From NCBI GenBank assembly GCA_020073485.1, contig JAIQFB010000005.1:1-64000 (forward strand): a DNA stretch of 64,000 nucleotides, read 5' to 3'. Positions 126-32,072 of this stretch are shown here, piece after piece; within the stretch, counting starts at the first letter, position 1, and each line of letters opens with the position of its first letter. The DNA comes from Terriglobia bacterium (GTDB lineage: Bacteria; Acidobacteriota; Terriglobia; Acidiferrales; UBA7541). The position numbers were made by a program, and so were the translations under genes. The notes under the pieces were generated by a model, which did no database searches, was not told the origin of the DNA, and saw only the letters and a list, made by a program, of their open reading frames with translations.

Positions 126-917
126 ATGCACCCCCACCTCAAATACCTGATTGAACTGCAGGCCGTCGATTTCCGCCTGATTGAAATTCGCGAGCGAATC
201 AGCAAATTCCCCAAGCAACTGGCGGAGGTGGAGGCGCGGGTCACGGCCGCGAAGCAGTTGATTACCGCCGCGAAAGACGCTCTGCTCACCAGCCAGAAAG
301 AACGCAAGACCTACGAGATGGACGTCGAGCAGTGGAAGGAGCGCGCGAAGAAGTACCGTAACCAGAGCGGCGAAGTCAAAACGAACGAGGCGTATAAGGC
401 CCTGCTGCACGAAATCCAGAACGCCGAGGACGAAGCCGCCAAGGCCGAAGACCGCCTGCTCGAGCGCATGGTGTCCGGCGAGGAATACGACCGGCAACTG
501 AAAGCCGCCGAAGCTGCGGTGAAGCAAGTCGAAGCCGAGGCGAATAAGGAACGCCACGCAATCCAGGCCGAATACAACACTGCGCAGAAAGAACTGGCCG
601 CCGCCGAAGCCGCGCGCGCAGCCTCCGCCGCTGCGGTGCCCGAAGATCTGGTCGATCATTACGAGCGCATCGCCAAGCGCCACGGCGGTATTGGCCTGGC
701 CGAAATTCGCGGCGAAGGCTGCGGACAGTGCGGCGTGCACATCCGCCCGCACATGATCCAACTCCTGCAGCGCGACGGCAACGAGGAGTTCTATCACTGC
801 GAGACGTGCACGCGCATCCTCTACTATCCCGATCATTCGGCTGCGCCCGGCCCAGCTGCCCCTTCGCCGGCGCCTTCCACGACGGATTCCTCAGCCGCAC
901 CTGCCCGCGAACATTAA
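126..917 (+). CDS. C4-type zinc-ribbon coiled-coil protein
   Basis: A 263-residue protein of the bacterial zinc-ribbon/DUF164-type family (zf-RING_7). Residues 10-170 are rich in Glu, Lys, Ala and Arg and should form a long antiparallel coiled coil. The C-terminal part carries two CxxC knuckles, Cys199/Cys202 and Cys225/Cys228, which should bind one zinc ion. An Ala/Pro/Ser-rich tail follows residue 238. The family is widespread and its biochemical role is not settled; nucleic-acid or protein binding has been suggested. No Shine-Dalgarno is evident, and the predicted promoter lies directly upstream, in keeping with a leaderless start at this ATG. Confidence 0.85.
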   Translation: MHPHLKYLIELQAVDFRLIEIRERISKFPKQLAEVEARVTAAKQLITAAKDALLTSQKERKTYEMDVEQWKERAKKYRNQSGEVKTNEAYKALLHEIQNAEDEAAKAEDRLLERMVSGEEYDRQLKAAEAAVKQVEAEANKERHAIQAEYNTAQKELAAAEAARAASAAAVPEDLVDHYERIAKRHGGIGLAEIRGEGCGQCGVHIRPHMIQLLQRDGNEEFYHCETCTRILYYPDHSAAPGPAAPSPAPSTTDSSAAPAREH

Positions 918-1195: not shown

Positions 1196-2197
1196 ATGAA
1201 ACCCACACACAAATCGTCCGGACGGCTCTTCGCCGAGCCCGAATCGGTTTCCCACAAATTGGAAGGCGCGTACACCGCCAATATCGACGGCGCGGCGCGC
1301 GGAAATCCGGGGCCCGCATCCTACGGAGTGGTGCTGCGCCACCCGAACGGCAAGCCGCTGGAATCGCTCGGAAAATATATCGGGCGGCACACCAACAACG
1401 TCGCCGAATACTACGCGCTGATCGCCGCGCTGGACTACGCCGAGGCCAACGGGATCAAACGCCTGCGTGTCCTTAGCGATTCGCAGTTGATCGTGAATCA
1501 GATCAAGGGCTTGTACAAAGTGAAGCATCCGGACCTGCGCCCGCTGCACGAGCGCGCCAAAAAACAGGCTGCGTCCCTCGAAGCCTTCACCATTCAATAT
1601 ATTCCGCGCGAGGAAAATCGCGCCGCCGATGCCGCGGCTAACGCGGCGCTCGACAACACGGGCAGCGTCAAGCCGGCGTACGGGTCCAAGCCCGCGCCTG
1701 CATCCAAACTCGCGCCTGCGGCCGGTCCGCCAAAATTGTCAGGCTCCGCCAAACCGGGTCTCTATCTGGACGACCTGCGCGTCGGCCTGCGCTTCACCTC
1801 CGGTCTGTACGAGATGGATGAAGATCGCATGAAGGAATTCGCCGCCGAGTTTGACCCGCAGCCGTTTCACCTGGATGATGCGGCTGCGAGGCACACCGTC
1901 TTCCGTGGACTTGCCGCCAGCGGCTGGCACACGGCGGCCGCGACGATGCGCCTTCTGGTGATGGGCGGAATGCCCCTGGCAGGAGGGATGGTAGGTCTCG
2001 GCGCCGATATTGTCTGGCCGAGGCCGACGCGTGCCGGAGACACCCTGCGCGTGGAAAGCGAAATCGTCGAGATTGTGCCGTCGCGCTCCAAGCCCAATCA
2101 AGCTGTCGTTACCGTCCACTGCATTACCGTGAATCAAGACGGCGAGGAAGTGCAATCCTTAACCACAAAAATGATCGTGTACAAGCGCCCGAATTGA
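1196..2197 (+). CDS. RNase HI-like domain fused to a MaoC-like hot-dog domain
   Basis: The 333-residue product joins two domains not normally found together. Residues 25-153 are a type 1 RNase H fold of the short RnhA-like kind: NIDGAARGNPGP supplies Asp31, NNVAEYYALIAAL supplies Glu71, LSDSQL supplies Asp95 and RAADAAANAAL supplies Asp145, so the metal-binding carboxylates are complete. A Pro/Ala/Lys/Ser-rich linker spans about 155-187. Residues 188-330 form a MaoC-type hot dog with the dehydratase signature FDPQPFH (Asp220, His225). The first half should cleave RNA in RNA-DNA hybrids; the second resembles (R)-enoyl-CoA hydratases. The ATG at 1196 is chosen because the frame upstream is repeat-bearing, noncoding-looking sequence. 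One uninterrupted frame makes this either a true fusion or two genes joined by loss of a stop codon. Confidence 0.85.
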   Translation: MKPTHKSSGRLFAEPESVSHKLEGAYTANIDGAARGNPGPASYGVVLRHPNGKPLESLGKYIGRHTNNVAEYYALIAALDYAEANGIKRLRVLSDSQLIVNQIKGLYKVKHPDLRPLHERAKKQAASLEAFTIQYIPREENRAADAAANAALDNTGSVKPAYGSKPAPASKLAPAAGPPKLSGSAKPGLYLDDLRVGLRFTSGLYEMDEDRMKEFAAEFDPQPFHLDDAAARHTVFRGLAASGWHTAAATMRLLVMGGMPLAGGMVGLGADIVWPRPTRAGDTLRVESEIVEIVPSRSKPNQAVVTVHCITVNQDGEEVQSLTTKMIVYKRPN

Positions 2198-2344: not shown

Positions 2345-3379
2345 CTACTTCATCATATAAGACCGATACAGCGTATCGCGCTGCGCGGGAACGAAGCCCG
2401 CATCTTCGATGATGCGGCGGAGTTCGCCTTCGTTGGTGCGGTTGCGAACGCCGGCGGCGAACACCACGTTTTCCTCGATCAGGATGCTGCCCACGTCGTC
2501 GGCGCCGAACTGCAGGCCCACCTGGCACACCTTGATTCCCGGCGTCAGCCAGCTCGACTGGATGTGGTCGATGTTGTCGAGATACATCCGGCTAATGGCC
2601 AGCGTTTTCAGATAATCGACGGCCGTGGCTTCCGGAACTTTTTTCCCCAGCGGGGTATTTTCCGGCGCGAACATCCAGGGGATGAACGCGGTGAACCCGC
2701 CGGTGTCTTCCTGGATGCGGCGCAGGCGCTCGAGGTGATTGACGCGGTGGCGGTACTCCTCGCCGCAGCCGAACATCATGGTGGCCGTGGTGCGCATGCC
2801 CAGCGAGTGCGCCGTGCGGTGCATGTCTTCCCATTCGTCGGAGGTGCACTTCAGGCGTGAGATGCGCGCGCGGATTTCGTCGTCCAGAATTTCCGCGCCG
2901 CCTCCGGGAATCGAGTCCAGGCCCGCAGCCAACAGCCGCGTGATCGTTTCGCGAACGCTCAGCCCGGAAACTTCCGCGATGCAGCCGATTTCCGGCGCCG
3001 AAAAACAGTGCAGATGCACCTGCGGGTAACGCTCTTTGAGCGAGCACAGCAGATTTTCGTAGTACTCAATGCGCAGATCCGGATGCAGGCCGCCCTGCAG
3101 CAGGATGCCGGTGCCGCCGAGCTCCAGCATTTCGTCAATCTTCTGGAAAATCGTCTCGAACGAGAGCAAATAGCCTTCCTTCGATCCCAGTGGCCGGTAG
3201 AACGCGCAGAATGAGCAGTACTCCGTGCAGAAATTCGTGTAGTTGATGTTGCGGTCGATCTGGTATGTGGCCACGCGCGGGTCGGTTTTTTTGCGGCGCA
3301 CTTCCATCGCCGCCATGCCCATGCCGATCAGGTCGTCGGAGTGAAACAGGTCGAGCGCTTCTTGTTGTGTGAGTCCCAT
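2345..3379 (-). CDS. mqnC: Cyclic dehypoxanthinyl futalosine synthase (MqnC)
   Basis: A radical-SAM enzyme of the futalosine route to menaquinone. It converts dehypoxanthine futalosine to the cyclic form in the cytoplasm. The 344-residue protein has the cluster-binding CxxxCxxC motif at Cys51, Cys55 and Cys58 (FCTEYCSFCAF), followed by the LQGGLHPD and PGGGAEIL segments typical of the MqnC/MqnE/CofH group. GAGGAAA lies a few bases before the ATG. The gene follows mqnA by 30 bp on the same strand, so the two are probably co-transcribed. MqnE is the nearest alternative, but the length, the SWLTPGIK segment and the mqnA neighbour favour MqnC. Confidence 0.93.
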   Translation of the reverse strand: MGLTQQEALDLFHSDDLIGMGMAAMEVRRKKTDPRVATYQIDRNINYTNFCTEYCSFCAFYRPLGSKEGYLLSFETIFQKIDEMLELGGTGILLQGGLHPDLRIEYYENLLCSLKERYPQVHLHCFSAPEIGCIAEVSGLSVRETITRLLAAGLDSIPGGGAEILDDEIRARISRLKCTSDEWEDMHRTAHSLGMRTTATMMFGCGEEYRHRVNHLERLRRIQEDTGGFTAFIPWMFAPENTPLGKKVPEATAVDYLKTLAISRMYLDNIDHIQSSWLTPGIKVCQVGLQFGADDVGSILIEENVVFAAGVRNRTNEGELRRIIEDAGFVPAQRDTLYRSYMMK

Positions 3380-3409: not shown

Positions 3410-4342
3410 CTAGTGCTTACCCGCAATCTTTTGCGGCGCGGGCCGTGCCACGCCCACAAACTCAATTTCCTTTGCGCGCGGAATCAAACCGGCCCGCGCG
3501 CACTCCTCATAATACAACCGCAGCCCCGCCAGATTCTCCTCGTCCAGCGAATAATCGATATTTTCAGTCAGGTAGCGTTCCAGTTCCCGCGGCGGCAATT
3601 CCAGCTTGAGCGCCGCGCCCTCGGCGATGTCGCCGATATGCGCCAAGCCGTACTCCCGCGAGGCCTGAAAATCGCCCATCATTTCCGGCGTCACGACGCC
3701 CCGCCGCGCCACCCAGATCGCCAGCACCGAAGGCAGTCCGGTCATTTCCCGCCACTGCTGCGCCACGTCGTACACGAACAGGGTTTCGATTCCCTTTACC
3801 GGATGCTCGTCCTCCGCATCGCCGTTGCAGCAGCAGCAGGCTTTCGCTCCAGGCACTTTCGCTTCCAGCGCGTCCACTTTCAGCCGCAGCCGCAGTGCCG
3901 GATCGCCGATCACAACGGCGGCATCGGCGCGCGCCAGCATTTCGTCCGCGTCAGGAGCCATGTCGATAAATTCAGGAGAAATATTCCAGTGCCGGCGGCA
4001 GAGAATCCGCGCCAGCGCCACCGTGCTGCGGGAATTCGTGTCCAGCGCGATGCTCCGCGCCTGTTCGATGGGAACTTTGGAAATCACCAGCAGGCTGCGG
4101 ACTTCGTTCTTGGCCGCGATGGCCATTCCCGGCAGCGCCACCACGTTTTCCATGCGCTGATACTCGATCGAAGGAATGATGCCCACGTCAGCGCGCCCCG
4201 CGCGCAAATCCTCGGCGCACTGCGACGGCACGGCAAACGAAAGATCGTATTTTCCGGCAAGAGGGCCGTCGGTAAAGCCCCAGACCAGCGGCGCGGTGTT
4301 CAAGAACTCGACGATGGAGATACGCAGTTTGCCCATAATCAT
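3410..4342 (-). CDS. mqnA: Chorismate dehydratase (MqnA)
   Basis: First enzyme of the futalosine menaquinone pathway, dehydrating chorismate to 3-enolpyruvoyl-benzoate. The 310-residue product has the periplasmic-binding-protein-like fold and family motifs: N-terminal ISIVEFLNTAPLVWGF, DVGIIPSIEYQR near residue 52, and WREMTGLPSVLAIWVAR near 197. The start could be Met1 or Met3. An unusual feature is Cys169-Cys172, four consecutive cysteines in an acidic loop (CCCCNGDAEDEH) just before the conserved YDVAQQW segment. I do not know this insert in characterised MqnA proteins. It leads the mqnA-mqnC pair; the other pathway genes are not in this window. Confidence 0.92.
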   Translation of the reverse strand: MIMGKLRISIVEFLNTAPLVWGFTDGPLAGKYDLSFAVPSQCAEDLRAGRADVGIIPSIEYQRMENVVALPGMAIAAKNEVRSLLVISKVPIEQARSIALDTNSRSTVALARILCRRHWNISPEFIDMAPDADEMLARADAAVVIGDPALRLRLKVDALEAKVPGAKACCCCNGDAEDEHPVKGIETLFVYDVAQQWREMTGLPSVLAIWVARRGVVTPEMMGDFQASREYGLAHIGDIAEGAALKLELPPRELERYLTENIDYSLDEENLAGLRLYYEECARAGLIPRAKEIEFVGVARPAPQKIAGKH

Positions 4343-14890: not shown

Positions 14891-14966
14891 GGTGGCACAG
14901 GCTTCAGCCTGTGTGGTTTAAATTTTCTTGCACCGAAACTTCGAACAGGCTGAAGCCTGTGTCACC
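14891..14966. repeat. 76-bp dispersed hairpin element, copy A
   Basis: Each end is itself a small hairpin (CACAGGCT-TC-AGCCTGTG), and the two ends pair with each other over about 20 bp (GGTGGCACAGGCTTCAGCCT against its complement ending GTCACC at 14966). The middle includes CCGAAACTTCG. A near-identical element lies at 25743-25818 and a diverged one at 32000-32072. Confidence 0.85.
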
Positions 14967-25742: not shown

Positions 25743-25818
25743 GGTGGCACAGGCTTCAGCCTGTGCGGTTTAGAGTTCCTGGCGCCGAAACTTCGCACAG
25801 TCTGAAGCCTGTGCCACC
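25743..25818. repeat. 76-bp dispersed hairpin element, copy B
   Basis: Same plan and length as copy A at 14891: GGTGGCACAGGCTTCAGCCT at one end, its complement ending GTGCCACC at 25818 at the other, with CCGAAACTTCG inside. The copies differ at only about a dozen positions. It separates the nucleotidyltransferase gene from lemA. Confidence 0.85.
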
Positions 25819-31999: not shown

Positions 32000-32072
32000 G
32001 GTGGCGCGGGCTTTAGCCTGCGGGTTTTCTTCCGAGGTGGCCTAACCCCCACAGGCTGAAGCCTGTGCCACT
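32000..32072. repeat. Diverged copy C of the 76-bp hairpin element
   Basis: GGTGGCGCGGGCTTTAGCCT at the left and ACAGGCTGAAGCCTGTGCCAC at the right form the same paired ends as copies A and B, but the middle differs. It lies between folC and the FecR-like gene. Confidence 0.75.

Follow-up and report, generated by a model that had tools for sequence, protein, structure and literature searches.

The RNase HI-CobC protein of actinomycetes (MSMEG_4305) consists of two halves that are functionally dissociated in vivo and joined by a variable linker, and drift has been proposed to account for it; both halves are under purifying selection, and the fusion is found in one lineage only (PMC7466739). 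By analogy, we consider it the closest described case to a gene that we studied in a Terriglobia bacterium (contig JAIQFB010000005.1, positions 1 to 64,000; this stretch of 64,000 nucleotides is the window, and all coordinates refer to it), which encodes an RNase HI followed by a MaoC-type dehydratase. The two share a variable linker, an unrelated C-terminal metabolic enzyme, selection on both halves, and restriction to one lineage. The N-terminal RNase HI is also of the same kind as in Rv2228c and MSMEG_4305 (NF005567), but the match to NF005567 covers residues 29-162 only and scores 137.6 bits, against a cut-off of 326, so the protein is not a member of the RNase HI-CobC family. The C-terminal half differs as well (MaoC here, a CobC acid phosphatase there), as does the phylum.

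The fused gene (rnhA-maoC; 1196-2197, forward strand) is one intact open frame of 333 amino acids plus stop, without interruption. The mechanically called ORF may begin upstream (at 989 or before); we set the start at 1196 according to the conserved N-terminus (M)KPTHK, which is common to the gene-bearing relatives within the genus. The encoded protein has, in order, a type-1 RNase HI, a disordered linker, and a MaoC hot dog, and in the model predicted from 22 sequences two domains are folded, whereas pLDDT drops under 50 over residues 154-183. The RNase HI domain (residues 29-151; 1280-1648, forward strand) is matched by Pfam RVT_3 (residues 29-151, E 2.9e-24) and RNase_H (E 6.5e-9), both above their curated cut-offs and together spanning residues 28-151. 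The first-pass annotation had read a complete RNase HI active site here, and alignment with the RNase HI domain of Rv2228c (3hst) bears this out for Asp31, Glu71, Asp95, and Asp145; Foldseek of this half returned 4e19 and 3hst, in each case the RNase H domain, so that both the RNase H fold and the DEDD carboxylates of a type-1 RNase HI are in place. Since RVT_3 and RNase_H each match only the fused gene across the genome (which has one RNase HII), the cell probably has no other RNase HI.

An Ala/Pro/Ser/Lys-rich linker of variable length (residues 155-187; 1658-1756, forward strand) leads to the MaoC hot-dog domain (residues 188-333; 1757-2194, forward strand), which matches MaoC_dehydratas (PF01575) at residues 206-306 (E 9.7e-11; 41.8 bits vs a cut-off of 27). 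The Asp220/His225 pair, also proposed from the initial reading of the sequence, was recovered: both residues sit within FDPQPFH and align with the D and H of 3exz and PhaJ1 (5cpg), and His225 does not vary across a 22-row alignment. The domain thus has the hot-dog fold and the catalytic Asp-x4-His pair of the MaoC dehydratases and (R)-hydratases. It scores well below the cut-offs of the named equivalogs, with 51.6 bits for RipB/Ich (cut-off 340) and 28.1 for HadA (cut-off 180). The closest structure is 3exz, a MaoC-like dehydratase of Rhodospirillum rubrum (Foldseek TM 0.98 of target), with 56% identity over 146 columns and the motif FDPQPFHLD in both; unlike the fused domain, 3exz and its relatives in Pseudomonadota and Acidobacteriota stand alone. 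The PhaJ-type (R)-specific enoyl-CoA hydratases (5cpg, 1iq6) share the hot-dog fold and the Asp-His spacing of five residues, but the identity is only ∼25%, and we call the fused MaoC a putative hydratase. Both halves of the protein are presumably catalytically active.

The same domain order, which the first-pass annotation had suggested looking for in related genomes, is present at full length in three of the six species genomes of this Acidobacteriota genus: the studied genome (G000, a 5.05-Mb draft, 97% complete), G005 (92% identity to the G000 protein), and G002 (75%). That annotation had taken the fusion to be real, unless homologues were always two genes and a stop codon had been lost here. 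A lost stop codon or an assembly mis-join is now extremely improbable: all of the genomes compared appear to be draft assemblies, which leaves some room for such an error, but the architecture is identical in three assemblies at 75-92% identity, the linkers differ among them in length and sequence with the frame always kept, the flanks are collinear among relatives, and purifying selection extends across the whole frame. We rejected an assembly artefact on the strength of these three independent species, and the RNase HI-MaoC gene is confirmed as a true, rare gene fusion in a few related soil bacteria. Between G000 and G005, dN/dS is lowest in MaoC (0.028), somewhat higher in the RNase H domain (0.078), and highest in the linker (0.225); the low values in the two domains indicate that selection maintains both halves in the fused state. 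A separate MaoC product from an internal start was also considered and rejected, since no in-frame start is conserved: codons 151-212 of G005 contain no in-frame ATG, GTG, or TTG, making separate translation of an intact MaoC unlikely in that species.

In every family genome whose neighborhood was inspected, rnhA lies between a cdsZ-like gene and the convergent mqnC-mqnA pair, and this neighborhood is conserved with or without MaoC. In the window, the upstream neighbor encodes a CT398/CdsZ-like protein with a coiled coil and a zinc ribbon (126-917, forward strand); downstream are mqnC (2345-3379, reverse strand; TIGR03699 over its cut-off) and an mqnA-like menaquinone biosynthesis gene (3410-4342, reverse strand; Pfam VitK2_biosynth E 5.9e-51), and all three assignments agree with the synteny in relatives. 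The usual rnhA of the family has the same locus, RNase H domain, and linker as the fused gene, but ends in a small beta tail of ∼35 residues (PF01954, AF2212-like) where the fused gene has a 146-residue hot dog. When tails were searched in isolation, PF01954 matched four of five with E-values of 5e-9 to 8e-5, and the fifth with 0.006. Species with the two parts apart, the other comparison proposed at first reading, are those with a tailed rnhA and those with MaoC as a stand-alone gene elsewhere. Within the genus, the tail is present in G001 and G003, and MaoC holds its position in G000, G005, and G002, the join lying in the linker, downstream of a shared VKPAY motif. The fused protein itself has no Pfam match to PF01954, nor did a PF01954 search of the G000, G005, and G002 genomes give one; the same search also missed the weak G001 tail, so the aligned sequences are the better evidence that the tail was replaced. 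We rejected an insertion of MaoC inside the gene that left the old tail behind, as no tail remnant follows the MaoC stop.

In the family, RNase HI usually ends in this short AF2212-like tail, attached through a variable linker (rnhA loci L005, L006, and L008-L031), and similar, divergent tailed RNases HI were recognized by eye in another family of the class (L103-L108); we met no description of an RNase HI carrying such a tail. The intergenic region between the fused gene and mqnC contains a near-perfect palindrome, GTAGGGGCACGGCATTGCCGTGCCCCTAC, at 2293-2321, and a related palindrome occupies the same place in G005. A further repeat, GTGGCACAGGCTTCAGCCTGTG, occurs at 14892-14965, 25744-25817, and 32050-32071, two of these being REP-like inverted pairs ∼30 bases apart; G001 and G002 have related copies in the rnhA-mqnC intergenic region.

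Relatives of the fused MaoC are stand-alone genes in five genomes of the family (G004, G097, G101, G107, and G112) and in Pseudomonadota, in unrelated contexts; their neighbors are mixed, with no clear pathway to suggest a function. G004, a draft genome, has two near-identical stand-alone copies (L071 and L072), both on short contigs, and the stand-alone family genes L094, L095, and L096 each follow a similar secreted-looking protein of ∼197-239 amino acids. A MaoC query of 89 family genomes found no other fusion, and there was no further one among 396 genomes of the phylum. A pattern scan of bacterial and archaeal contigs, a method that picks up close relatives, gave no further case, and none was found in plasmids, phages, or viral contigs. 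As far as searched, the fusion therefore appears confined to one genus. It was at first reading thought absent from described proteins, and the literature searched agrees, holding no description of an RNase HI-MaoC fusion; most subscription papers are outside this coverage, so the absence of a description is weak evidence.

A tree of cdsZ, the RNase H domain, and mqnC gives (G003,((G000,G005),(G002,G001))), with support of 96/93 and 100/99, and places G001 as sister of the fused G002 (100/99). G001 has the AF2212-like tail, and a close MaoC was not found there. Being tailed in this position, G001 implies either a single fusion that was later overwritten, the old tail having been regained by recombination, or two fusions. 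The three fused MaoCs group together (89/87; 83/91 with DNA), but the AU test does not reject topologies in which they originate separately (p 0.09-0.23).

We think it probable that the fusion is lineage-restricted and arose in an ancestor within the genus, where recombination in the rnhA linker would have exchanged the AF2212-like tail for a MaoC-type hydratase gene without a start of its own. The fusion would then have left two independent enzymes on one chain, kept or fixed mainly by drift; by analogy with RNase HI-CobC, such a recombination-made pair retained largely by drift is the most likely reading. We infer that the halves are mutually independent and that drift was the main route to fixation, and the fusion may be chance. 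Hot-dog proteins are generally dimeric, and the MaoC domain might instead be kept mainly as a dimerization module in place of the small beta tail, making the RNase HI bivalent on hybrids. This is rather unlikely: tail and MaoC do follow the same linker at the same position, and the only solved structure found for the AF2212 family, a weak match (E 0.22), is listed with two chains, but the catalytic Asp and His are retained, and a MaoC dN/dS of 0.028 reflects stronger constraint than a mere scaffold would need.

A functional link, with acyl-CoA or the hydratase reaction regulating the RNase HI, or with lipid metabolism coupled through the fusion to replication or transcription, is less probable still. 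In its favor, both halves are conserved and lie on a single chain in three species, and FapR shows that hot-dog regulators without catalysis exist (PMC516016); against it, the neighboring genes are not lipid genes, family members without this MaoC retain rnhA at the same locus, and the variable linker speaks against a fixed interface. We hold it equally improbable that a MaoC domain, still catalytic and acquired by C-terminal module exchange, gives the RNase HI a dimeric, acyl-CoA-responsive body.

If MaoC does make the RNase HI acyl-CoA-responsive, hybrid removal would answer to lipid or carbon status, and a repeated fusion, if true, would hint at selection. After RNase HI-CobC, this is the second time that an RNase HI of this type is seen to have acquired, independently, an unrelated metabolic enzyme as its C-terminal part. 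A single genus contains both the donor state, with the AF2212-like tail, and the fused state, which offers a rare clean test of whether a domain fusion is fixed by function or by drift.
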